A DNA stretch of 44,433 bases, taken from positions 1 through 44,433 of the IMG/VR virus record IMGVR_UViG_3300035183_000669; one strand, written 5' to 3'. Every line of letters starts with the position of its first letter. Position 1 is the first letter of the stretch. Position numbers and translations under genes: made by a program. The notes below the pieces were generated by a model. It had not been told where the DNA came from. It was given only the letters and a program-made list of their open reading frames with translations, and ran no database searches. Below, in pieces: positions 5,816 through 44,433 of the stretch. Source of the DNA: a virus.

Positions 5816-8413
5816 ATGTTACCCGTATTTTTAGCCGCAACCAGAACAATCGCACGTAGTGTTGGTATTCCTCGTGGCATCAGCGAGATTAAAACTGGTA
5901 GCTTGAGAGAAATTGCCAGAAAAATTAGGCGAGAAGCTCCCAGTGCAGTTTGGCGTGCAGCGGGTGGCAATCAAGTACCTGTGTTAGATACCATATTCAA
6001 TAAATGGAATGAGAGAAGGATTTCTCGTCTCGATGAAATAGAAAATGCTAGAGTTACTGGGAATAAGAAAGCTGAAGCAAGTGATATTAAATTTGCACGC
6101 GAGATAAACCGCGAACGTGCAACTAGTAGAAAACTACAGGAAGAAATTTTAAGAAAAGAAGAGGCAGATAGAGTTGCCGCAGCCCATGAAGCTGCACATC
6201 AGAGAGCTATTGCAGCGACTTTAGGTAGAGAAGAAGTAAACTATCTTCAGCGGATTAGCTATGACATTGCGCAATTGAAAGAATATGTGCTTAGACATGG
6301 AATTTGTTGCGAATCGAGTAATGAAAATAAAAAACCAAGCGGATTATTCAGAGGATTGCTTGGCATCTTACCTCTAGGACTCCCGTTTCTTGGTAGGAAA
6401 ATTTTAGATGTTTTTGGAGGGAGAATAAGTGTTATCAAGAATGTCGGCAGTAAAGTAATTGATTTGATCGGGGCTGGTGGAAGGGGAATAGCTGGAGTCG
6501 CTAAAAGTTCTGCTCCCAAGATCAAAAGATTCTTAGAGGGTGCAACAGGGTTTGCAGGGAAAGCTGTAAGAGGATTGAAAACAAGCGCAGCAGATGTGAT
6601 TGCTCGCAGTGGCGTATTAGAAAATGTTAAAAATGCCTCTTCTGGTATATTGAAAGGTATCGGTGCTACAGGCAGGATCACTGGAGTTGCTAAAAATGTT
6701 GTTACTCCTCTTTTAACGACCACTGCAGAATTACTAGATCCTGCCTTAGCGGTTACATCTGCGGGTTTGACTGGTTGGGAGGTTGGTAAATGGCTTAATA
6801 GAAAGATGGGAGGAACGGATATCGGTAGGATCAAGGACAAGATCTTTGACAATATCTTCTCGACTATAGATGCCTTAACTGGCGGTGGAATCAGTGGAAA
6901 TAAAAATATTGCTGAACAGAATTGGAAAGAAAGTTCTCTAGGTAAATTTGCTGAGGAAACGAAACAGAAAGTTTCAAATATCATACAAAAAGTGGCTGAT
7001 GTTATTGTGCCGCCTGCAAGTGCTTCGGAAACCGATGAAAAGATAGAAAAGCAAAAGTTTCAGAGAATTGAATTACAAAAATTCGAAAGAGTTGAGAAGA
7101 TTGATAAAGATTTGATTGCCGCCATTAATGCTAATAATGAAAAATTAGATGAGATGAATGAGTCTCTCAAAGTTATTAGCAGTGATAGTTGGCTTGAAAA
7201 ATTGGGAGATAATTTAAAAAATGGAATGGGTTTCCTAGCAAGTCGATTTGGTGAAAGGTTGAGAAGTGGTGCTCAGAGATTAGAGGAATGGGGGAGAAAG
7301 CTCCAAGAAGATACTGGTACTGGAGTTACTCAGCGATTGAAAAGATTCGCAGGCGGAGTTGCCGAAAAAGTTGGTTCTGGTTTAGAATCTGTTGCCATGA
7401 AAGCAGGTGAGATTGGTTATGATTTACAGAAAGGCAGTAAAAGTCAACTTGAATTGGCGAAAGCTTTCCAAGGAAGTAAAACTATAAAGGGTTTAACACC
7501 CGAACAGACGAAAGCTTATGCAGGTAATGTAGCGGCTACTGAAAGTGGCGGGAAATTAGATATAGTAAATCAATATGGTTTTGTTGGACAATATCAGTTT
7601 GGTGCGGATGCTTTAGCTGATCTCGGGTTCATAGATAAAGAGAAACTTGCCAAAGCAAAAGCCGAAGCTAGAGCCGCGGGTAAGGATTGGTACAAGAGTG
7701 GCTTGCATAAAAAATTCTTAGAAGATCCTAGAAATTGGATTAATGAAGGTGGCCGTGAAGCCTTCATGAAAAATAAGAAAATTCAAGATGAGTTGTTCAT
7801 CGAATATACAAATAGAAACATCGAAGCAGGATTCAGAAGTGGTGCGCTCACTAAAGAAAGCACTCCTGAACAGATAGTTGCTTATGCCAAGGCAGCGCAT
7901 TTGAAAGGAGTCGGAGGAGCTAACAATTACTTCTTGCGAGGAATAGATAGCGCAGACGCTTATGGCACGACAGTTAGTAAGTACGCAAAAGATGCTTCTA
8001 AAAATGTAATAGCACTAAGCAAACAAATCGCGGAAGCTACAACGCCAACCACAGCTAGTGTTCAGCCAGTTACAAATAAAGCTGAAATGAGCATATTTCC
8101 CCTTACCTATGATAATTCTCTCATGACGTCTGGGAGAATTGAGATGGCATCAACTAATGACTTGACAAGATTGATGCCTGTCTCTCAAACAAAAGTAGGG
8201 GATGTTGTGAGTCTACAAACGATGGAAACAAGAAAGGCTGAACAACAAAGTCTTCAGCCTATCGTCATTAATGCTGGTGGATCTGCTCCAGCGCCTGTGG
8301 TTGTTCCGACAAATAAAGTATCTAATACTGGATCGGCGCCCATGGTTACGCGCAATCAAGACAGTAGCATCCGCCGCATTACAGATGCATTGATGAGTTA
8401 TGGTTTGTCTTGA
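5816..8413 (+). CDS. Tape-measure-like tail protein with lytic transglycosylase domain
   Basis: A large 865-residue tail protein. The N-terminal third is charged and helical (residues 60-130, Arg/Glu/Ala-rich), followed by a long Gly/Ala/Ile/Leu-rich region (about 160-330) with hydrophobic helices typical of tape measure proteins. Around residues 565-660 there is an SLT-type muralytic domain: VAATESGG with catalytic-type Glu576, then NQYGFVGQYQFG. The C-terminus is Thr/Pro-rich with ENTSIRRITDAL-like ends. It likely sets tail length, crosses the envelope and locally cuts peptidoglycan during DNA entry. It could instead be a hub/lysin protein. It ends overlapping the convergent spanin gene by 16 bases. 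Confidence 0.72.
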   Translation: MLPVFLAATRTIARSVGIPRGISEIKTGSLREIARKIRREAPSAVWRAAGGNQVPVLDTIFNKWNERRISRLDEIENARVTGNKKAEASDIKFAREINRERATSRKLQEEILRKEEADRVAAAHEAAHQRAIAATLGREEVNYLQRISYDIAQLKEYVLRHGICCESSNENKKPSGLFRGLLGILPLGLPFLGRKILDVFGGRISVIKNVGSKVIDLIGAGGRGIAGVAKSSAPKIKRFLEGATGFAGKAVRGLKTSAADVIARSGVLENVKNASSGILKGIGATGRITGVAKNVVTPLLTTTAELLDPALAVTSAGLTGWEVGKWLNRKMGGTDIGRIKDKIFDNIFSTIDALTGGGISGNKNIAEQNWKESSLGKFAEETKQKVSNIIQKVADVIVPPASASETDEKIEKQKFQRIELQKFERVEKIDKDLIAAINANNEKLDEMNESLKVISSDSWLEKLGDNLKNGMGFLASRFGERLRSGAQRLEEWGRKLQEDTGTGVTQRLKRFAGGVAEKVGSGLESVAMKAGEIGYDLQKGSKSQLELAKAFQGSKTIKGLTPEQTKAYAGNVAATESGGKLDIVNQYGFVGQYQFGADALADLGFIDKEKLAKAKAEARAAGKDWYKSGLHKKFLEDPRNWINEGGREAFMKNKKIQDELFIEYTNRNIEAGFRSGALTKESTPEQIVAYAKAAHLKGVGGANNYFLRGIDSADAYGTTVSKYAKDASKNVIALSKQIAEATTPTTASVQPVTNKAEMSIFPLTYDNSLMTSGRIEMASTNDLTRLMPVSQTKVGDVVSLQTMETRKAEQQSLQPIVINAGGSAPAPVVVPTNKVSNTGSAPMVTRNQDSSIRRITDALMSYGLS

Positions 8414-8934
8414 TTGGCTTGGTTAGCTTGGTATCTGTCAAGTAGCTCTTTTACTGTTCTTGCCCAGGCCTTGCAGAGGTTGAGTTGCTCAACTACTGTG
8501 TCTGCTCGGGCAGCCTCATGGAGAAGAAATCTACTAGCCTCTTCAGAAAGTTCGGTTCCTGTTCCTCCTGAAGTGCTGGTGGTAGAGGAGGAATTTGTGG
8601 AAGAGGCGTTTTGACAACTCGAACGGGAGCCTGGGTCGCGCAGCCTGTGACCAGCACTGATAGCAGAATTGTACTTATTAAGTAATGCTTTGGTGCGTTT
8701 TTCGTTCTCAGCATAGGCTAGTTCTAGTTTATCTCTAGTTGCGAGAAGTTCATGTTCAACTTGCGTGGCATGTTCTCTTTCTTGTCGCAAAGCTTCATTA
8801 GCTATTCGCTCAATTTCAGCAATCCTTTGTGTATATACGGCATCCTTATACTTTGCGGTGTAGTAAATCGAAATGGAGCTGCTAGCGGTAGCTGCAGCAA
8901 TTGTTGCTAGTACAGTTACTTTAAGATTGAACAT
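8398..8934 (-). CDS. Rz: Inner-membrane spanin (Rz-like)
   Basis: A 178-residue protein with an N-terminal membrane segment (residues 5-27), a long charged coiled coil (about 30-90) and a Ser/Thr/Gly linker. This is the layout of an i-spanin, which links the inner membrane to the o-spanin and fuses the membranes in the last lysis step of Gram-negative hosts. The o-spanin gene is wholly nested in another frame (8493-8714), the classic Rz/Rz1 arrangement. It is last in a minus-strand late operon and its start overlaps the gene upstream. Confidence 0.85.
   Translation of the reverse strand: MFNLKVTVLATIAAATASSSISIYYTAKYKDAVYTQRIAEIERIANEALRQEREHATQVEHELLATRDKLELAYAENEKRTKALLNKYNSAISAGHRLRDPGSRSSCQNASSTNSSSTTSTSGGTGTELSEEASRFLLHEAARADTVVEQLNLCKAWARTVKELLDRYQANQANQDKP
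8493..8714 (-). CDS. Rz1: Outer-membrane lipoprotein spanin (Rz1-like), nested
   Basis: A 73-residue ORF nested out of frame inside the i-spanin gene. It has a signal peptide and lipobox LVTGC (Cys at about residue 25), then a Pro-rich mature part (PLPQIPPLPPALQ), the signature of o-spanins. It should be lipidated and anchored to the outer membrane, pairing with the i-spanin. Nested placement supports it strongly. Confidence 0.86.
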   Translation of the reverse strand: MLRTKNAPKHYLISTILLSVLVTGCATQAPVRVVKTPLPQIPPLPPALQEEQEPNFLKRLVDFFSMRLPEQTQ

Positions 8935-9319
8935 CTCTATACACCAAGTGATATCTCTTTGCGGTATCGGCTAATATGTCATCGATGATTCTATTTGATT
9001 CAATTTCATCATCCCAAAGACAATAGCAACCAATAAAAAGAAGCATGCTTTTCGCGACAGAAAATTCATCATCCGACAAAATTATACGAAGCATTTGATT
9101 GACTTTCTTGGTACCAAAAGTGTTGATTGAAATTATAATATTATTCAGAAGTAATTTCTCATTGATCATACCCGTTCTCAAGAAACGAGCAATCATTTTT
9201 CGGATGATAAAGAGATTGTATATGTCTTTCTTGAATTCAATTTCATTGAAGAAACCATTGATGGCATAACCATCCCTGGCAATTTCTATGATTCTCTTTT
9301 TTCTGTCACGGTTCGCCAT
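8921..9319 (-). CDS. Conserved phage protein of unknown function (DUF7207-like)
   Basis: A 132-residue helical protein. It contains NEIEFKKDIYNLFIIRKMIARFL and a following LLNNIIISINTFG segment, a pattern I associate with a small family common in T4-like phages near lysis or tail genes (DUF7207 type). No catalytic motif or membrane segment is evident. The start follows the upstream stop directly (TAGATGG), and the stop overlaps the spanin start, so all three are one minus-strand unit. Confidence 0.6.
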   Translation of the reverse strand: MANRDRKKRIIEIARDGYAINGFFNEIEFKKDIYNLFIIRKMIARFLRTGMINEKLLLNNIIISINTFGTKKVNQMLRIILSDDEFSVAKSMLLFIGCYCLWDDEIESNRIIDDILADTAKRYHLVYRDVQS

Positions 9320-9601
9320 CTATTGTGCGGTTTTCGAACTTTTTGTCCGACGACGGGGCTTCTTTTCTGTTTCATGATCATCTGCTTTGGTTTCTGCTTC
9401 AACAGGAGCCTGTTCTGGTTCAGTTTCAGTAGTTTCTTTAGGAATTTCTCCTTTGTACGGCCGATTAGGTACAAATCCCTCAACTGGATTAGGCAGCCCA
9501 CGCACACAAACTAGTACTTCGCCAGTTTTAGGGAGAGCCCAACCGTAAATAGTAGGAATCGCGTCTGGATGTGGTTTTCGAAAACGTCTTTCGGTTGACA
9601 T
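9320..9601 (-). CDS. Hypothetical protein, acidic/Pro-rich tail
   Basis: The 93-residue protein starts MSTERRFRKPHPDAIP. ATG at 9601 is chosen because AAGGAGA lies 9 bases upstream; a TTG three codons earlier overlaps that site. The first half looks folded (IYGWALPKTGEVLVCVRGLP). The second half is a disordered Glu/Pro/Thr/Lys tail ending in RRRTKSSK. It is the first strong gene of the minus-strand late unit ending in the spanins. Function is unknown; a small virion or tail accessory protein is possible. Confidence 0.62.
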   Translation of the reverse strand: MSTERRFRKPHPDAIPTIYGWALPKTGEVLVCVRGLPNPVEGFVPNRPYKGEIPKETTETEPEQAPVEAETKADDHETEKKPRRRTKSSKTAQ

Positions 9602-9636
9602 TTGTATCAATCTCCTTTATAATATATTAACATGAG

Positions 9637-17138: not shown

Positions 17139-20100
17139 ATGAAATTCAAAGAATTCTTAGAACTCCAAGAGAATAGTCTGTACACGGATTCTGCCACGAA
17201 AAACGCTCTTCTTGCAGATAAAGAGCGCGTGATGGATAGTCTCATGTTCAACTTCTTTGGCTTTCTTGGATTGTACAAATTGAGTGATACTCGTGGTTAT
17301 ATGAAAAGTTATGAAACAACTGAAGGGAAGTTGATTGTTCATAACATTAGTGATACTAACCATGATGTGAGTTTATCAATCAAATTGGCTTACGACGCAG
17401 GTCTATTAAATTTGAATGTTGTGAATAAAATGACTCGCTTGCTTGCATTGATCAAACAGAAAAGATTGAGGAGCGAAGATCTTGATGAAACTTTAATTAG
17501 GGCTCTATTAGATGAAATTCATTATGCCACCCATAGGCCTAGTTCAAGAGTCTTTTTATTAATACAGGCATTCCATAATGGCGTTCTCGATTTACCTAAT
17601 TTAGCAAAAGAACTCTATCAACTCGCAAAGCTACGGGAATATAAAAGTATCACAGGTGAATTCCGTGATTTAGTTTTAAAAGGGCAGTACAATAGTCTTT
17701 TTGCGAAATTAAAACCTCAAGCGAATGTCACTAATGATGCGCCAACCACTTCCGAGATATCTGCAGCTGACATTCAAGATACGAATAAGCAAAATCAGTC
17801 TGGCTCTTCTGAAGTAGAAAAACCAGTTTCGCCTCCACCTTCAAAATTAGGACAAACAGATGAGTTCACGGATGGAATTTTTGAAGCTAAGGATCAAGCG
17901 CAATTTAAAGATCTGTTCAAAACTTATGATGTTAAAGAATTTGACTTTGATAAGTTCGTAAAATGGTTCAAATCACCCAAGAACAAAGAAAAGTTTCCTC
18001 CTGGAGTTCTAAATAGTCCACTTTGTAAGTGGCTTCTAGAAACCTTAAATTCCTCGAGGGATGGGAAAGTACGCCAAGCCATTAATGATATTTTAGAAAA
18101 AATTCTGGTTAATTTTGTTTCAAGTTGTGCAGCTTCGAGAGATATAAGAGGATTCCTTGAAGCTATCAAAGACATCGACCCGAAGGTTGTTCACATAATC
18201 GAAATTTCTAGGAAAAGCAAAAAGATACTTGCAGATTCTCTTGATAAACTTCTAGATCTTTTCGTTTCTGATATTGTCGGAAATGTTCCTGATTTTTCAG
18301 ACGCCACATTGGCGCAACTTAAAAAACAATATGAATCTTTCAAAACATTTGCGATAAGCGCTGGATTTGAGGCGAAAATAAATGCAGTTAAAGCAAAAGA
18401 AATTTTTGATGCTGGGTTCAATAAGATCAGTGTTTACATTTTAGCCCTAGATCTCGCATATACCACTTACGCGCGAATTGATTATGCCGAGTGGCTTGAA
18501 AAAGCTTTTGGCTCTGGAAGTGCAATCATCAAGTCTGGAGCAAATTCTAAAACGCCGCCTCTCGCATTGAAGAAGAGTGCCTATGATAAAGCACCAGAAG
18601 AAGCTAAGCAAGCTTTTCAATTGCTAGTTCGGAATAAAATTCAAGGGGCAGAAATAGTTGATGATGATAATGCTGGAACGTTGTGGGCAAAACATTGGAT
18701 CTATGAAGTAAGTCCGTATAGGCATGATGCACATTTTAAAATGAGCAACTACAATGAAGTTAATCTCAAAGCATTCACAGAAAATGAAATTAATGCAGCG
18801 TATGAAGTGTTTGCCAGCTTGACGCCTGCTACTCTTGCCAATTGTATAGATCTATTCTGTAGAATTCGCATAATGAGTTTGAATGATAATGGAAAAGCTT
18901 ACTATAAAAATTTAGTGAAGGTGATCGCCAAATTAATAAAAACAGGTAAAATTGAAGATGTCAAATTGCTTGTCATTTGCGCAGGCTTGGATGATTTGTT
19001 ATTTGATGAAGCCACTAAACTGATCTTGAACAACAACAAATATTTGGATGTCTTAAATGATGCCATGGAGTTTTTGATTGATCATAGAAATGATTATGAT
19101 ATATCATATGTTTCATTAAAGAAGATTTTTACGTGGTATTCGAAGCTAGCTGAACAAGGGAAGGTCATTTCTACCGCGAAATTGGTTACCGCAATCAGAT
19201 TTTATGGTATTGATGCTTATATTATGCCTAAACAAGAGGATGTCGAAGATGTTTTTCTTGTATTAAAACATAAACAAGAATCATTTGATTATCTTCGTTG
19301 GTTAGTTAAACATAATGATAATTTGAGGAAAAAAATCATTGAATACAACACGACTGCTAGTCATGGAGGTGATGTTGATCCTGTCAGAGTGCCTTATCCC
19401 GCAATTTTCTTATCTGATGAAGATATTACTGATGGAATGATTGTAAATTTCAAGCAGCAGTGGTCAGTCAATCCTAAATTCAATAACATCTCAGATTATG
19501 CTTTCAGTAAGAAATTGACTGATGCTTGCCGTGAAACAATGGAAGAAGTATTGAAAACATCTGACAGTAAACCACTCATACTGAAGGCATTGAGTGTTGT
19601 TGGTGGAAAAGCATTTAATGATTATTTCAACAAAACAGATGTTTCGAAAATAAAAAATATTTTTTCTGGTAGCTTGACAAAGCCAGAAGATGTCGCTGAT
19701 ATACTTAGATCAATAGCCAGTGATCAGAAATTCATCACTAATATCGGGCCTACTGCTGCCGCTAAATTTACGACAGTTCTCCAACAAGCCCTTGAGAACA
19801 AGAAAAAATTTGATAAATCTTATCGGGATGAAATCCATAAGTTGTTCTGTGAATTTATGGCTTCAGGGATGGAATCTAACAAATATGATGTTTTAGAGGA
19901 AGTTTATAGTAACGCAAAGGGAGAATTCAAGAAAGCAATTGTTGATTATTTTGTGGGTTATAGCTTCTTGGAAAAGGCATCCAAAGCTATTTTCGCAGAT
20001 GACGTTTTAATCAAACCTTATGAAAAACTAAATCAACAGCGCTTACTTGATGTTCTTCGCTATAACAATGTTAATCCGCCTTCTTTGTCAATTCGTGAAG

Positions 20101-21065
20101 CGCCGACTTTTAAGACTCTTCTGCAAAGAGCAAATATGGCGAATGCTGTTATCTCTGATTTAAAGGTTGAACAAGTTGAACATAATGAAGAGTCTTTAGA
20201 ACGGAAGAGTGCTGAGTATGATGTTTTTAATAAGTATCGTCATGGACAGATTGCAGTTAAATTCCTTCGTGAATTCAAAGTTAATATTCCAGAACAAGAA
20301 AAAGGACAACAGGAATTTTTGAAGTATATGCCTAATACAGATGAGATTGATCCTGCATTTCATGGTACAGGATCAGTTGCCGCGTCTATGATTTTACGTT
20401 ATGGCTTTGCTGTCATTAATAACGATGACGAGATGGTTGTTGGTCGTATGCTTGGTAATGGAATTTATTTCTCAAATGTGCTTGATAAGGTTGCCCAGTA
20501 TGTATCTGATGAAGGTTATACGCGCGGTATTGGCACTAAAGGTTATATCTTTCAAATGAATGCATTACTCGGCAAAGAAGGTGTTGATTATAGAGCTGCT
20601 GGGCTTGGGGGAGACAGCATCATTTCTCCTGAATGGTGTGTATTTCATCTCAATAAACAACTCAGAATTTACAAGGCATTTGAAGTTGAAATTATTAGTA
20701 AGGATGATATGGATGCCTTGAAAGCAAAATACAAGATAAATGAGGAAACAGCAGTGAGAATACTCACTTTTAAGGAGTTCTTACGTGAAGCAAGAACTCC
20801 AGGTAAACAAGTGACTACTTACGTGTTTGTTGATGGAACAATTCCTGTCTCAGAACACAAAGCGGTTGATTTTGAACAATTCAGGCCTGAACAGTTTGGT
20901 CCTCATGTGTGGCTTGAGCCATCTAAGAATGGTCCCATGGTCTGTATCGAACATGATGGAGAACAAAGTGAAGCATTTTGTGTGAGATTTACGCATGCTT
21001 TCATGAGACAAGGACAAGATTTGATGAAGTTCTTGAATTCACTTCGGAAGAAAACGGTTGTTTAA
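17139..21065 (+). CDS. Giant PARP-like ADP-ribosyltransferase with capsid-targeting-like N-terminus
   Basis: A 1308-residue protein. The N-terminus MKFKEFLELQENS resembles the T4 capsid-targeting peptide and holds an LQE protease-type site. Residues 50-1000 are mostly helical with no clear family. Residues about 1060-1190 form a PARP-type catalytic domain: FHGTGS with His1075, GNGIYFS with Tyr1110 and SPEWCVF with Glu1165, the H-Y-E triad of PARP/diphtheria-type enzymes that use NAD+. T4 Alt is also packaged, but it uses the R-S-E triad. A second tag-like segment, LTFKEFLRE (1209-1217), precedes a 91-residue C-terminal domain. It is driven by a late promoter. Packaging and injection are inference; the ART domain call is strong. 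Confidence 0.8.
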   Translation: MKFKEFLELQENSLYTDSATKNALLADKERVMDSLMFNFFGFLGLYKLSDTRGYMKSYETTEGKLIVHNISDTNHDVSLSIKLAYDAGLLNLNVVNKMTRLLALIKQKRLRSEDLDETLIRALLDEIHYATHRPSSRVFLLIQAFHNGVLDLPNLAKELYQLAKLREYKSITGEFRDLVLKGQYNSLFAKLKPQANVTNDAPTTSEISAADIQDTNKQNQSGSSEVEKPVSPPPSKLGQTDEFTDGIFEAKDQAQFKDLFKTYDVKEFDFDKFVKWFKSPKNKEKFPPGVLNSPLCKWLLETLNSSRDGKVRQAINDILEKILVNFVSSCAASRDIRGFLEAIKDIDPKVVHIIEISRKSKKILADSLDKLLDLFVSDIVGNVPDFSDATLAQLKKQYESFKTFAISAGFEAKINAVKAKEIFDAGFNKISVYILALDLAYTTYARIDYAEWLEKAFGSGSAIIKSGANSKTPPLALKKSAYDKAPEEAKQAFQLLVRNKIQGAEIVDDDNAGTLWAKHWIYEVSPYRHDAHFKMSNYNEVNLKAFTENEINAAYEVFASLTPATLANCIDLFCRIRIMSLNDNGKAYYKNLVKVIAKLIKTGKIEDVKLLVICAGLDDLLFDEATKLILNNNKYLDVLNDAMEFLIDHRNDYDISYVSLKKIFTWYSKLAEQGKVISTAKLVTAIRFYGIDAYIMPKQEDVEDVFLVLKHKQESFDYLRWLVKHNDNLRKKIIEYNTTASHGGDVDPVRVPYPAIFLSDEDITDGMIVNFKQQWSVNPKFNNISDYAFSKKLTDACRETMEEVLKTSDSKPLILKALSVVGGKAFNDYFNKTDVSKIKNIFSGSLTKPEDVADILRSIASDQKFITNIGPTAAAKFTTVLQQALENKKKFDKSYRDEIHKLFCEFMASGMESNKYDVLEEVYSNAKGEFKKAIVDYFVGYSFLEKASKAIFADDVLIKPYEKLNQQRLLDVLRYNNVNPPSLSIREAPTFKTLLQRANMANAVISDLKVEQVEHNEESLERKSAEYDVFNKYRHGQIAVKFLREFKVNIPEQEKGQQEFLKYMPNTDEIDPAFHGTGSVAASMILRYGFAVINNDDEMVVGRMLGNGIYFSNVLDKVAQYVSDEGYTRGIGTKGYIFQMNALLGKEGVDYRAAGLGGDSIISPEWCVFHLNKQLRIYKAFEVEIISKDDMDALKAKYKINEETAVRILTFKEFLREARTPGKQVTTYVFVDGTIPVSEHKAVDFEQFRPEQFGPHVWLEPSKNGPMVCIEHDGEQSEAFCVRFTHAFMRQGQDLMKFLNSLRKKTVV
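20754..21065 (+). CDS. Possible in-frame internal gene: 103-residue tagged C-terminal protein
   Basis: Inside the ART gene, in the same frame, GTG at 20754 is preceded by GAGG at an 8-base spacing. The product would begin VRILTFKEFLREARTPG, with the same capsid-targeting-like tag at its very N-terminus as the other tagged proteins. This suggests either a second protein made from the same gene, or a former separate gene now fused to the ART. The rest (YVFVDGTIPVSEHKAVDF and on) is not recognised. Expression is not proven by sequence. Confidence 0.4.
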   Translation: MRILTFKEFLREARTPGKQVTTYVFVDGTIPVSEHKAVDFEQFRPEQFGPHVWLEPSKNGPMVCIEHDGEQSEAFCVRFTHAFMRQGQDLMKFLNSLRKKTVV

Positions 21066-23882: not shown

Positions 23883-24623
23883 ATGGCTGCTAATACCTCA
23901 CCGATCTTTTCTCGTGCTGGCGATATTCAAGGCGGTGTAGTTCTAACTACCGCTGCCAACGACTACACTGGCCAAAACATTAATAACGCTGTAGTCTTCA
24001 CTGCCGATCCTACAAATGGTGGGTATATCCAGCGCTTACGATTTAAAGCGCTAGGTACTAACGTTGCTACGGTATGCCGAATTTATATCAATAACGGAAG
24101 AGGACGTTTTGCTCCAGCTATTTCAGCGCCTTCTTCAGCGCCTACAGGGACTGCATCCACGACAGATGGTAATCTGCAAACGGGTTCGTATTACGCTAAG
24201 ATTGTTGCCGTTGATCAGTACGGTGTCCCAACTTCCCCGTCACCAGAATCCTCGGCTGTTTCCGTTACTGGCCCCACGGGATCTATCACTTGGAACTGGA
24301 CAGCCGTGACAGGCGCAGTAAGTTATATGATCTTTGTGGGGAGTGTTTCTGGTGGACAAGTGTCCTACTTCACTTCAAATACAAATTCCTTTACTCAGAC
24401 AGATCCTGTCGGAACTGTTAGATCTATAAATGGTTCGATTGCCAACAACTGGTTGTACGGTGAACTTTCTTTACCAGCCACCACTGCTTCTGCGACTGCA
24501 GCTACTATCGAAGTTGATTACCCATTGAACTTTGTTCTGCCTCCAGGGTATTCTATCATAGTCGGTCTAGGAACAACTGTTGCCGCGGGTTGGTCGGTCG
24601 CTGCTATTGGAGGTAAGTACTAA
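23883..24623 (+). CDS. Tail fibre protein with fibronectin-III-like domain
   Basis: A 246-residue beta-rich protein. The centre (about residues 75-170) reads SAPSSAPTGTAS, GSYYAKIVAVDQYG, SITWNWTAVTGAVSYMIFV, an Ig/FN3-like domain. The flanks resemble a bacteriophage capsid/fibre beta-sandwich (YIQRLRFKALG and FVLPPGYSIIVGLGT). Its stop overlaps the glycine-rich adhesin start (TAATG). Base composition rises in GC from here on. Likely a fibre shaft or tip adaptor. Confidence 0.65.
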   Translation: MAANTSPIFSRAGDIQGGVVLTTAANDYTGQNINNAVVFTADPTNGGYIQRLRFKALGTNVATVCRIYINNGRGRFAPAISAPSSAPTGTASTTDGNLQTGSYYAKIVAVDQYGVPTSPSPESSAVSVTGPTGSITWNWTAVTGAVSYMIFVGSVSGGQVSYFTSNTNSFTQTDPVGTVRSINGSIANNWLYGELSLPATTASATAATIEVDYPLNFVLPPGYSIIVGLGTTVAAGWSVAAIGGKY

Positions 24624-25564
24624 TGCTGGATATACTGCATTTAGCTGAACAACCAGGGGCTGACGTTCAAATTTTCAGGGGTACAGGGGCTTCTGGCGCT
24701 CCTACATGGATGACTTGGCAAAAACGCCGCGGCGTATCCATGTGTTATATGATCTGTATTGGTGGTGGTGGTGGCGGCGGATCAGGAGCGGTCGGCTCTC
24801 CTTCCTCTGCAGCCGGCGGTGGCGGAGGCGGGTCTGGGGGTCAATCTACACTGATCATTCCTGCTTGCCTTTTACCTGATACTTTGTTTGTAAGTGTGGG
24901 TCGAGGGGGTGATTCAGGGAGCGCAGGCGCTCCGTCGGTCATTTCAATCCAACCGCACGCTTCGAATTCACAAAATTATGTATTGATGGCTAACGGGGGC
25001 GGCGCCGGCGGTAATGCTTCGGGTTCGACTGCTGGGGCAGCCGGCGCCGCAGCATCGGCAGTTTCAATAGGTAGTTGTCCTCTTGCCGGATTGGGGGTTT
25101 ATATTTTCCTTGCTGGTCAAGCTGGGACCGCTGGCGGTTCCACAACCGTCGGTACTGCGCTTTCATACCCCGCCGCAGGCATGGTTGTTACTGGTGGTAC
25201 TGGGGGCGGAGGACTTCCTGCGCTTTCAACCGCAGGAAACGCCGGTGGCGCAATTAATAGTCTTACGCACCCGACATATTTTGTCGGTAATCCAGGCGGG
25301 GCAGGTGGTGCCGCAAACAACTCTCCAGGCAGTAACGGGTCGAATGGAGCTAGTCTATTTCCGAAGCTGCTTTATGGTTGGGGTGGGACAGGCGGCGGAA
25401 GTGGTGGTTTAGGTTCGTCTGGTGCTTCTACAGCTGCTGGTGGTAGAGGTGGTGATGGTGGTATGGGTTCTGGTGGCGGCGGTGGTGGTGGTGGATTCAC
25501 TGGAGCTGCAGTAGCCCCTGGTGGACGTGGCGGTGATGGTATTGTTATCATTGTTTCGTGGTGA
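24623..25564 (+). CDS. Glycine-rich tip adhesin
   Basis: A 313-residue protein. After a WQKRRGVSMCYMICIG start it is dominated by Gly-rich loops (GGGGGGGSG, GGGGGGSGG and GGGGGGGGFTG) with short hydrophobic spacers and the end GGDGIVIIVSW. This polyglycine II-type pattern is known from T-even gp38 adhesins and phage glycine-rich fibre tips, which determine host receptor. The region is clearly more GC-rich than the rest of the window, partly from Gly codons. It is the last structural gene before a small tagged protein. Confidence 0.75.
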   Translation: MLDILHLAEQPGADVQIFRGTGASGAPTWMTWQKRRGVSMCYMICIGGGGGGGSGAVGSPSSAAGGGGGGSGGQSTLIIPACLLPDTLFVSVGRGGDSGSAGAPSVISIQPHASNSQNYVLMANGGGAGGNASGSTAGAAGAAASAVSIGSCPLAGLGVYIFLAGQAGTAGGSTTVGTALSYPAAGMVVTGGTGGGGLPALSTAGNAGGAINSLTHPTYFVGNPGGAGGAANNSPGSNGSNGASLFPKLLYGWGGTGGGSGGLGSSGASTAAGGRGGDGGMGSGGGGGGGGFTGAAVAPGGRGGDGIVIIVSW

Positions 25565-26457: not shown

Positions 26458-26512
26458 AAGTTCAAAAATTTTTCAAAAATTGCTTGACATCTCGTAGAAG
26501 TTGTGATATAAT
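26458..26512 (+). promoter_or_regulatory. Strong early promoter with AT-rich upstream block
   Basis: TTGACA (26484-26489), 17 bases, TATAAT (26507-26512): a perfect consensus. An AT-rich block, AGTTCAAAAATTTTTCAAAA, sits just upstream and recurs before 26577 and 43885. The nearest downstream GGAGG (about 26532) leads only to a 20-codon frame with TTG start, so this may be an orphan promoter or one of a tandem pair. Confidence 0.85.
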
Positions 26513-28964: not shown

Positions 28965-29126
28965 GTGGCCACAAAAAACGACATCACAGGTGATGCTATT
29001 AAAAGTCGAGTCATTACGAAAGCTTATGAAGAAGGTTATGAACGGATCTTCGGCAAGAAGAAGCGCGAAGAGAATGAAAAGTCATTAAATAAAATTGATG
29101 ACAAAAAATCACAAGAACAGGCTTGA
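28965..29126 (+). CDS. Small conserved phage protein
   Basis: A 53-residue ORF with a GTG start 10 bases after AGGAGG. The product opens VATKNDITGDAIKSRVITKA and continues YERIFGKKKREENEK, a pattern I know as a recurrent small phage protein of unknown function. It lies between tRNA-Thr and the tmRNA, and its TGA stop is inside the TTGACA of the tmRNA promoter. Confidence 0.7.
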   Translation: MATKNDITGDAIKSRVITKAYEEGYERIFGKKKREENEKSLNKIDDKKSQEQA

Positions 29127-29151
29127 CAACTTGTAAGAATTGCTATAATAT
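29123..29151 (+). promoter_or_regulatory. Sigma-70-type promoter of the tmRNA
   Basis: TTGACA (29123-29128) with TATAAT at 15 bases or TAATAT at 17 bases. It lies just before the acceptor piece of the permuted tmRNA. Its -35 contains the stop codon of the small gene upstream. Confidence 0.72.
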
Positions 29152-29157
29152 TTTAGA

Positions 29158-29392
29158 AATGGCTGTGTAACTCAACTTCAGAAAGTCATATCGGACGGCG
29201 GTTCGAATCCGCCCAGCTCCACCAGGGGCTGAATTGGGCGTCGACGGTATGGTAAGTAAGAAGTTTGGGCAGCTCGACAAGGTAAAGTCGTTAAAACCAA
29301 CCAAAGTAAACGCGAACGACGCAGTTTACGAGTTGGCGGCTTAGTAAGTAACCGCCTGGGGTTTGGTGGGTACCTCGCAACAGAAACCCACC
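29158..29392 (+). ncRNA. ssrA: Circularly permuted tmRNA (ssrA)
   Basis: The acceptor (3') piece comes first: T arm GGCGG-TTCGAAT-CCGCC (29197-29213), then CAGCTCC, A and CCA (29214-29224). With no bases between, the 5' piece starts GGGGCTG (29225-29231) and continues with the tmRNA-typical TCGACGG. GGGGCTG pairs with CAGCTCC exactly as in bacterial tmRNA. The tag frame is GCG AAC GAC GCA to GCT TAG (29312-29344), encoding ANDAVYELAA after the charged Ala and ending in LAA. Permuted ssrA genes are typical of Alphaproteobacteria. It should rescue stalled ribosomes and tag proteins for Clp proteases; a ClpP-like gene follows. Piece ends are approximate. Confidence 0.88.
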
Positions 29393-29403
29393 TTTGTTTT
29401 GTT
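29365..29403 (+). terminator. Terminator at the tmRNA 3' end
   Basis: A 7-base-pair stem, GGTGGGT with ACCCACC, closes a 14-base loop and is followed by TTTGTTTTGTT. It likely ends the permuted tmRNA precursor; part of it could belong to a pseudoknot. Confidence 0.7.
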
Positions 29404-29446
29404 ACCCATATGTAGTAACTGATCTTTTAACACCATGGAGATTCAC

Positions 29447-30049
29447 ATGAGCCAAGAAGAATATACTGAAAATCTTGATCTTAATCTCAATACACCGACC
29501 AATGCTTTTCTGAATATTCCTATTGCTCGCCAGCACAGTTTCTATTTGAGTGGTCCTATCTTATCTCCTGAGCATTACTCAAAATGGTTTCATGTAATTC
29601 GAAATGCCAGCGAGAATGATGTTGTCATTCTACATATAAACAGTCCTGGAGGAGATGTTGCGACTGCAATTCAATTTATGCGTGTGATTGCAGAAACTCC
29701 CGCGACTGTTGTAGCCAGTGCAGAGGGTAATTGTATGAGTGCCGCTGCAATGATTTTCTTAGCAGCAGATTCTCATCAGATCAGTGAGCATAGTTGCTTC
29801 ATGTTTCACAACTACAGTGGAATAAGTGTTGGCAAAGGCGGTGAGATGTACGATAACATAATCTTCGAGCGTAAATGGAGTGAAAGGATGCTCAGGAGCA
29901 TTTATGCCAATTTTCTCACTGATGATGAGATTGAAGCGATGCTCAATAATCGTGATGTTTGGATGGATGGCGAAGAAGTTGCTAAACGACTAGAAAAGCG
30001 ATATGAAAAACTAGCCAAAGAAATGGAGGACGAAGAAAATGGGTGCTGA
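29447..30049 (+). CDS. clpP: ClpP-family serine protease
   Basis: A 200-residue ClpP-like peptidase. ATG at 29447 is chosen because GGAG lies 6 bases upstream; that GGAG overlaps an earlier ATG at 29435. The catalytic triad is intact at Ser98 (NCMSAAAM), His121 (FMFHNYSG) and Asp170 (NRDVWMDG), close to E. coli Ser97/His122/Asp171 numbering, and INSPGGDV is the oxyanion strand. It lacks an N-terminal propeptide. It lies directly after the tmRNA, whose LAA tag is a ClpXP/ClpAP signal. In phages ClpP-like proteins can also act in head maturation; here no capsid gene is nearby, so it may act in the cytosol. Confidence 0.88.
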   Translation: MSQEEYTENLDLNLNTPTNAFLNIPIARQHSFYLSGPILSPEHYSKWFHVIRNASENDVVILHINSPGGDVATAIQFMRVIAETPATVVASAEGNCMSAAAMIFLAADSHQISEHSCFMFHNYSGISVGKGGEMYDNIIFERKWSERMLRSIYANFLTDDEIEAMLNNRDVWMDGEEVAKRLEKRYEKLAKEMEDEENGC

Positions 30050-42356: not shown

Positions 42357-43280
42357 ATGAACAAAAGAAGCACTATGTTTTTAAATTACTTGACTTGTGT
42401 TGACCATGCTTTCATTGATGACAATGGTCGTGTCGTAGGTGGTAGCTATCATCCGAATTTCTTAGTTGGCGGTAAAGTAGATGAAGTTGAGCAAGTAGTC
42501 GTTGACTTTTCTAAGGTCAAGAAACAAATCAAGGATGCCATCGACGATAGAGAAACAGGTTTTGATCATAAACTTTGGATCATTCCAAGTTATAGTAGAT
42601 GTGAGTATGACACCTGGCAAGATCAAATTACTATTCGTACGCCAGCTTGTGAATTAGAAATGCCTAGGAATGCAGTCAAGATCTTCGATAACAATTACAT
42701 TGGTACATTTCAAGAGACTGTCCAAAGAGCCATTCAGCATCATGTCTGGCAAGCTCTAGACAATCTGCATCCTGGATGTGATATTTCTGTGGAGTGTCAG
42801 TTGACTACTCAAGCTTTTATGAAAGACCCACAGAAAAGTTTCATGTTTAGATACGTACATGGATTGAAGAATTCCTCCAGTTGGGGATGTCAGAATCATA
42901 GCCATGGGCATCTTTCGTGGATTGAAGTAGAACATGATCTGTTCTACAATCCTGATTGCCAGGACTGTAGGCGTGGAATGCAGACTGTTTATGATATCGC
43001 TACTGCTCTTGACGGTGCTATTTTGATCTATAATCAAAATATTGTGAAGGAAACAGATGAATATGTTAAGATTCAGTATGCTTCAGAAAGAGGCATCTGG
43101 AAAGCAACCTACAGCAAAGCGCACAACAAAATTGTCGTGCTAGATCGTGAAACCACAATTGAGAACATCGTTGATTGGGTTGTTGAGAAGCATCTGGGTA
43201 CATTGATGATGGGTCATGTCAAACGTCTTTTTGTTAGCGAAGGGCTGAGCAAGGGTGCCGTAAGAGAATTTTCTGTTTGA
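42357..43280 (+). CDS. QueD/6-pyruvoyl-tetrahydropterin synthase-like protein (extended)
   Basis: A 307-residue protein. VVVDFSKVKKQIKDAI then GFDHKLW (His71) fit the DF-x-x-x-K and LDHK motifs of QueD/PTPS enzymes; TTIENIVDWV fits the TAEN motif, and a C-terminal SEGLSKGA fits the final Glu. The zinc-type HSHGHLSW (His181, 183, 185) lies in a central insert of about 100 residues, not near the N-terminus as in QueD, so the order looks rearranged. If active it would make 6-carboxy-tetrahydropterin, the substrate of the QueE-like protein at 2. Paired Cys (NPDCQDC) add a possible zinc site. Moderate confidence. Confidence 0.6.
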   Translation: MNKRSTMFLNYLTCVDHAFIDDNGRVVGGSYHPNFLVGGKVDEVEQVVVDFSKVKKQIKDAIDDRETGFDHKLWIIPSYSRCEYDTWQDQITIRTPACELEMPRNAVKIFDNNYIGTFQETVQRAIQHHVWQALDNLHPGCDISVECQLTTQAFMKDPQKSFMFRYVHGLKNSSSWGCQNHSHGHLSWIEVEHDLFYNPDCQDCRRGMQTVYDIATALDGAILIYNQNIVKETDEYVKIQYASERGIWKATYSKAHNKIVVLDRETTIENIVDWVVEKHLGTLMMGHVKRLFVSEGLSKGAVREFSV

Positions 43281-43289
43281 GGATATATT

Positions 43290-43523
43290 ATGAACAAACC
43301 AGACTATGTCTACGTGAATGGTAATTGCGCTGTCAGCTATCTTCCAGGGTATATCCTGATTCGTTATGTTTCACTGAAGAATCGTTACTTGAATCCAATC
43401 TCTTGTGGTTGCTATAGAACTGATACATCGGCAGGCTTGCAAGATTGCGAGATCACTTACGGACTCGTTCGAATCAGTAATGGTGTGCCTTCGATGGTAA
43501 ATTTTTTCAAGGTGGGTGCTTGA
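43290..43523 (+). CDS. Small hypothetical protein
   Basis: A 77-residue beta-rich protein (MNKPDYVYVNGNCAVSYLPG to the end FFKVGA). Cys-rich in the middle (SCGCYRT). No family. Its TGA stop is inside the -35 hexamer of the next promoter. Ribosome site is weak (GAGGATATATT). Function unknown. Confidence 0.55.
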   Translation: MNKPDYVYVNGNCAVSYLPGYILIRYVSLKNRYLNPISCGCYRTDTSAGLQDCEITYGLVRISNGVPSMVNFFKVGA

Positions 43524-43548
43524 CATCTTGCAGGAGTTGTGATATAAT
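43520..43548 (+). promoter_or_regulatory. Strong early promoter
   Basis: TTGACA (43520-43525), 17 bases, TATAAT: perfect consensus, 29 bases before the 43578 gene. Spacer ends GGAGTTGTGA, like the others. Confidence 0.87.
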
Positions 43549-43577
43549 ATAATCAAGAAAGTGAAAAGGAGAACATC

Positions 43578-43792: not shown

Positions 43793-43795
43793 CCG

Positions 43796-43823
43796 ACGCC
43801 CTCGCTTCTGGGGGCGTTTCTTT
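43796..43823 (+). terminator. Rho-independent terminator
   Basis: ACGCCC pairs with GGGCGT around a 10-base loop, followed by TTCTTT. Ends the single-gene unit 43578-43754. Confidence 0.7.
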
Positions 43824-43857: not shown

Positions 43858-43913
43858 CCACTCTGAAAATTTTTCAAAAATTGCTTGACTTCTCCTAGAA
43901 GCTGCACTATAAT
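43858..43913 (+). promoter_or_regulatory. Strong early promoter with AT-rich upstream block
   Basis: TTGACT (43885-43890), 17 bases, TATAAT (43908-43913), with AAAATTTTTCAAAAATTGC upstream, as before 26484 and 26577. About 40 bases before the 43953 gene. Confidence 0.87.
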
Positions 43914-43952
43914 TAGATCAAGAAAATGAGAACTGCGAATTAGGAGGATGAG

Positions 43953-44153
43953 ATGAAGACTGTATCTGTAAAGACTAAAAACGGTGGGATCACAATCGGC
44001 AACGTAGATGAAAAGGGACGGGTGGTCTATCTTGCAGGCCATTGGGTTCCGTGTAAAGATCCTGATCGCTTGAATGAAATTTTCGGAAGCAAGATTGAAG
44101 AAATCATTTATGATGGCGGTTTGATGTATAAGAGCATGATAGCTCACATCTAA
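43953..44153 (+). CDS. Small hypothetical protein
   Basis: A 66-residue protein with TAGGAGG upstream. It reads VKTKNGGITIGNVDEKGRVVYLAGHWVPC, beta-rich, then a helix and IIYDGGLMYKSMIAHI. No family recognised. Behind a strong early promoter, so likely a small host-takeover gene. Only 19 bases separate it from the acyltransferase start, so that gene may share its transcript. Confidence 0.6.
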   Translation: MKTVSVKTKNGGITIGNVDEKGRVVYLAGHWVPCKDPDRLNEIFGSKIEEIIYDGGLMYKSMIAHI

Positions 44154-44172
44154 AAACAACTAAAAAGCGCGG

Positions 44173-44433
44173 ATGAGTATTAGGACAAATCCATTAACAG
44201 CAGCTTCAGCCGATCAGGTAGACTTGCGAACAAAATTCCATGAGTACTTTGAACTAGTTCATGCTAATACTGACGTTCTCAAACGTGAAGCTCATAAATT
44301 GAGATTCCAGGTGTATTGCCTTGAGACTGGATTTGAGCGCCAGGAGAACTGCGAGGTATTCAACGAGGACGGACACGAGGTCTACCTAGAAGTGGACAGC
44401 TATGATCGCCGCAGCGATCATTATCTAGTACGT
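44173..44433 (+). CDS. LuxI/exosortase-associated-type acyltransferase (3' truncated)
   Basis: Cut by the right edge; 87 residues visible. FHEYFELVHANTDVLKREAH, then KLRFQVYCLETGFE and LEVDSYDRRSDHYLV, fit the GNAT-fold group that includes acyl-homoserine-lactone (LuxI) synthases and the PEP-CTERM/exosortase-associated acyltransferase (TIGR03694-type), with the conserved R-x-x-V-Y/F, E-x-D-x-Y-D and S-x-H/Y-L residues. It may make an acylated signal or modify lipid or protein. The ribosome site is weak; it follows the 43953 gene behind a strong early promoter. Family call good, substrate unknown. Confidence 0.75.
   Translation, partial: MSIRTNPLTAASADQVDLRTKFHEYFELVHANTDVLKREAHKLRFQVYCLETGFERQENCEVFNEDGHEVYLEVDSYDRRSDHYLVR

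Follow-up and report, generated by a model that had tools for sequence, protein, structure and literature searches.

A TIGR03694-type acyltransferase gene at the end of a T4-superfamily phage contig, probably derived from a methanotroph

Related synthases and comparison with the phage locus

Proteins of the TIGR03694-type family make long-chain N-acyl amino acids according to the literature (Craig 2011, as cited in later papers). Disruption of ExoAT in Methylomonas sp. LW13 leads to loss of a polysaccharide band that is restored by complementation (PMC11072679), and the related synthase Nas354 becomes inactive when Ala takes the place of its catalytic Glu103 (PMC4897644). LuxI-type acyl-homoserine lactone (AHL) synthases are known from phages: prophages with LuxI/LuxR exist in Phaeobacter (PMC13345283) and an AHL synthetase is annotated in the Roseobacter phage RDJL Phi 2.

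The window analysed here is the whole of IMG/VR record IMGVR_UViG_3300035183_000669 (44,433 bases, classed as linear). Genes for gp32, a DnaB-like helicase, primase, ligase, NrdAB (ribonucleotide reductase) and the baseplate, together with the gene at 42357-43280 that it shares with KVP40-type phages, identify it as a fragment of a T4-superfamily myovirus. The features at its right end are the following:

42357..43280, + strand: phage backbone gene (phrog_14221, weak QueD-like match), common to KVP40-type phages and two sister contigs
43520..43560, + strand: second copy of the extended promoter, TTGACA-17-TATAAT
43795..43818, + strand: terminator-like hairpin closing the upstream unit
43885..43925, + strand: extended promoter of the phage, TTGACT-17-TATAAT-TAG-ATCAAGAAA, belonging to a set of five related copies
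43953..44153, + strand: 66-aa ORF with an AGGAGG Shine-Dalgarno sequence, between promoter and acyltransferase
44173..44433, + strand: 5' third of a PEP-CTERM/exosortase-associated acyltransferase gene (ExoAT / N-acyl amino acid synthase-like; TIGR03694) that is truncated at the contig end

Like the methanotroph ExoAT proteins, the phage piece matches the N-terminal quarter of the TIGR03694 profile. It is close to a Methylothermaceae-type orthologue, which adjoins prsT, and exosortases occur in the genomes concerned. Unlike them, the phage copy lies in a T4-type phage, where its neighbours are a promoter and genes of the phage. The contig contains only a third of it, and none of the window proteins tested matches an exosortase or prsT. 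FeeM (PDB 2G0B) matches the predicted fold of a full-length relative and there is a weak match to the Pfam FeeM profile (21.1 bits, cut-off 27), but sequence similarity is low and the catalytic Glu lies outside the window. The LuxI-type AHL synthases (LasI, EsaI, TofI, BjaI) share a GNAT-related fold and Arg, Asp and Asp positions with the family, but differ at a position detailed below. Phage-borne luxI genes also place a synthase of this fold on a phage. However, they are annotated as true AHL synthases and are paired with luxR in the prophages, whereas the present gene belongs to an exosortase-linked family.

Phages of methanotrophs reportedly carry pmoC as an auxiliary gene. As with pmoC, the acyltransferase would be a host-derived gene on a large phage with a likely methanotroph host, but pmoC concerns methane oxidation and the acyltransferase would concern surface or EPS chemistry. 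A text search of the methanotroph-phage paper PMC7674155 found no acyltransferase or exosortase.

The open reading frame and its relatives

The reading frame starts with an ATG at 44173, preceded by an in-frame stop codon at 44161-44163, and stays open for 87 codons, right up to the window's end. Circular closure was rejected because the frame has no continuation at base 1 and because of the linear class of the record. Since the window spans this entire linear record, the remainder of the gene is absent from the data. The visible part amounts to about one third of the protein and the acyl-binding half lies beyond the contig end. The equivalent of the catalytic Glu of type I N-acyl amino acid synthases (Glu95 in FeeM, Glu103 in Nas354) is the Glu of AEISRF (position 134 in the Methylohalobius relative L004) and falls past the contig end. 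The start codon is not preceded by a Shine-Dalgarno sequence, a property shared with 10 other listed phage starts. The motifs named in a preliminary description of this DNA are all read in the frame: KLRFQVYC, EVDSYD (E-x-D-x-Y-D) and SDHYL (S-x-H-Y-L).

The comparison with TIGR03694-type profiles proposed in that description gave a match at E 1.6e-12 (47.4 bits, NCBIfam), covering profile positions 2-61 of 241. The curated cut-off of 111.95 bits applies to whole proteins and the 87-aa fragment is too short to reach it; the lower score is expected for an alignment over a quarter of the profile. Acetyltransf_5 is a further weak Pfam match, and a PDB search with the 87-aa piece as single sequence returned unrelated weak matches only. 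TIGR03694 is matched by all 21 aligned members of the family, and the three nearest full-length relatives score 246-254 bits, far over the cut-off.

The best relative in genome contigs is a full-length protein from a Methylohalobius MAG, with 70% identity over 83 residues (residues 5-87). It is followed by proteins from a Methylothermaceae MAG (58%) and a Methylococcaceae MAG (53%), and another Methylococcales genome carries a homolog 65-66% identical. The closest relatives all come from Methylococcales of the Methylothermaceae type. Matches at E <= 1e-5 are found in 65 of 201 Methylococcales genomes. Outside the order, the best match in a class-wide sample, the Methylohalobius genome being set aside, is 52% identical (E 4e-12). 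All invariant family columns in the covered stretch are kept by the phage piece (LR-x-QVYC...GF, E-x-D...D and the L/H positions). A stretch of about 10 residues after GFER (EV-FNEDGHEVYL) is common to the phage piece and the Methylothermaceae-type clade and absent from most other members. The tree built on 87 columns is poorly resolved and supports only the grouping with this clade (87/90, with an open fork).

The homolog L004 of Methylohalobius is chromosomal, has 268 codons and adjoins prsT (TIGR02917, 716 bits) and hemC. Exosortase (TIGR02602) is above cut-off in 9 of 10 homolog-bearing genomes, including nearly all of the closest. The acyltransferase gene by itself points to a Methylococcales methanotroph as the probable host of the phage. 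Two other host markers were discarded. For the tRNA-Arg, Methylothermaceae-type genomes led within the order, yet equally good matches occur throughout the class, and it was therefore dropped. A CRISPR spacer candidate, an exact match of 25 bases in one methanotroph genome, has no repeats around it and was therefore treated as chance.

Probable residence of the gene in the phage

The extended promoter TTGAC-N18-TATAAT-NNN-ATCAAGAAA occurs in five copies (at 26484, 26577, 39449, 43520 and 43885), against 0.03 expected by chance; three of the five are exact to the search pattern. This class may represent the early promoters of the phage. The copy nearest the acyltransferase contains a strong sigma-70-like promoter (43885-43913, scoring 11/12), which bears out the strong upstream promoter of the preliminary description, although the 66-aa ORF comes first. 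Searches for relatives of this ORF found none. It is separated from the acyltransferase by 19 nt, and no terminator was found between the 43885 promoter and the acyltransferase. The gene may be expressed early.

Two sister contigs in IMG/VR are colinear with the window at 94% and 92% DNA identity. They stop at 43486 and 43372 in window coordinates, some 700-800 bases short of the acyltransferase. Beyond these two, no longer or overlapping IMG/VR contig was found with the exact end pattern, the neighbouring ORFs of 58, 66 and 77 aa or the full-length relatives, and these IMG/VR searches found no second contig spanning the junction of gene and phage. No homolog was detected in phage records by tblastn with a full-length relative. 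No other IMG/VR contig with a homolog was found using short exact peptide patterns, which may miss diverged homologs.

An alternative explanation is an assembly artefact, in which the last ~260 bases would be methanotroph chromosome wrongly joined to the phage contig. The position of the gene at the extreme contig end, the early ends of both sister contigs, the absence of the homolog from the other viral contigs and phage records searched and the lack of a Shine-Dalgarno sequence are in line with such a join. At 0.448, the gene also ranks near the top of the window in GC content once the 23-26 kb block is set aside, and only two of 37 genes score lower per codon under the phage model. However, homology starts at the gene start, and the frame comes shortly after a promoter and an ORF of the phage; a random join would need to hit a gap of a few tens of bases. 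The DNA upstream of the ATG does not resemble the corresponding host DNA, and the best DNA-level match in the genomes sampled from the order is only 73% identical. GC3 is 0.437, within the range of the phage (0.27-0.45) and far from the three nearest homologs (0.655-0.817), and codon usage favours the phage model over two host models, each derived from two genes. Given the phage promoter, the 19-nt gap and the phage-like codon usage, a chimeric contig end is unlikely. Were it chimeric, the significance of a phage-borne acyltransferase would fall away.

Equally improbable is a gene that was captured but is dead or truncated, that is, host DNA passing without function through a variable early region. 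The second half of the gene lies out of view, its start has no Shine-Dalgarno sequence and the region near the contig end is rich in small unique ORFs, as such a relic would have it. A dead gene does not readily account for 87 codons with zero stops, for the retention of residues conserved throughout the family or for a strong upstream promoter with no terminator found between.

Several other features of the phage were observed. A tmRNA is encoded at 29109-29435 (ARAGORN tag ANDAVYELAA; Rfam tmRNA_permuted 111 bits, beta_tmRNA 108 bits) and is directly abutted by a ClpP-like protease ORF (29435-30049). Nothing similar to the tmRNA DNA was found in phage records, and none of the methanotroph genomes tested has a permuted-tmRNA match over cut-off. 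A protein of 1308 aa (17139-21065) has partial-length kin among proteins annotated as ADP-ribosyltransferases in Stenotrophomonas, Xanthomonas and Aeromonas phages. A QueE-like radical SAM protein (2-748), together with the weak QueD-like match at 42357-43280, hints at 7-deazaguanine DNA modification. A glycine-rich protein (24623-25564), possibly related to tail fibres, has a GC content of 0.56, much above the rest of the phage, and belongs to a region between about 23 and 26 kb in which GC is elevated. Finally, ORFs of 73-178 aa occupy the minus strand at 8398-9610, the rest of the window being plus-stranded, and the GC skew falls in this block.

Predicted activity and possible role in infection

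The preliminary description had presented the gene as a quorum-signal synthase. The fold comparison used a model of the full-length relative L004, of moderate quality (mean pLDDT 69), and not of the phage protein itself. AHL synthases come first, with LasI as best match (E 8e-8), and the N-acyl amino acid synthase FeeM is matched at E 5e-5 to 5e-4. The Arg, Asp and Asp positions of AHL synthases have aligned counterparts in the family, some members of which weakly match TraI models. However, sequence similarity to AHL synthases is marginal (E 0.001-0.009), and the phage piece and 20 of 20 full-length relatives have Phe where all five aligned AHL-synthase chains (BjaI twice, TofI, RpaI and LasI) have Trp. 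A true LuxI-type enzyme, whose acyl-homoserine lactone product would serve the phage for signalling or for disturbing host quorum sensing, would agree with the shared fold and with the precedents on phages, but is very improbable given this Phe, the TIGR03694 matches of the full-length relatives, the exosortases in the genomes of nearly all the closest ones and the absence of a luxR-like gene among the window proteins scanned (part of the ORFs). A signal role of the phage product is less likely than one in acyl-amino-acid and EPS chemistry. The quorum-signal proposal is not supported, the closest proteins being exosortase-linked methanotroph acyltransferases from a family that the literature connects with N-acyl amino acids and EPS. 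The broader proposal of a TIGR03694-type acyltransferase in a phage holds up, given the profile match, the methanotroph relatives and the phage genes in the record.

We therefore consider, with a probability of about 0.6, that the contig ends in a host-derived auxiliary gene, the phage copy of an exosortase-A-associated acyltransferase of a Methylothermaceae-type methanotroph. Action on the host surface or EPS is the most likely role because the relatives come from exosortase-bearing genomes, the nearest one neighbours prsT, the family literature points the same way and the kinship with AHL synthases is a remote one, at the level of the fold. The captured gene would continue intact beyond the contig end and be expressed early by the phage, and its product would be an N-acyl amino acid. 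The phage might benefit from an altered host surface or EPS, for example by keeping up or altering the secreted matrix or by shutting out rival phages. More tentatively, a T4-type methanotroph phage with a working N-acyl amino acid synthase could alter both the acyl-amino-acid pool and the exopolysaccharide matrix of its host during infection.

If true, this would be, within the collections and papers searched, the first phage gene known to act on a PEP-CTERM/exosortase-linked pathway. That a phage keeps its own copy of the acyltransferase would imply that the product matters within a single infection cycle. The phage copy would offer a compact tool for testing what the acyltransferase does in PEP-CTERM/exosortase systems, and would connect phages with the chemistry of the matrix and surface in methane-oxidising bacteria.
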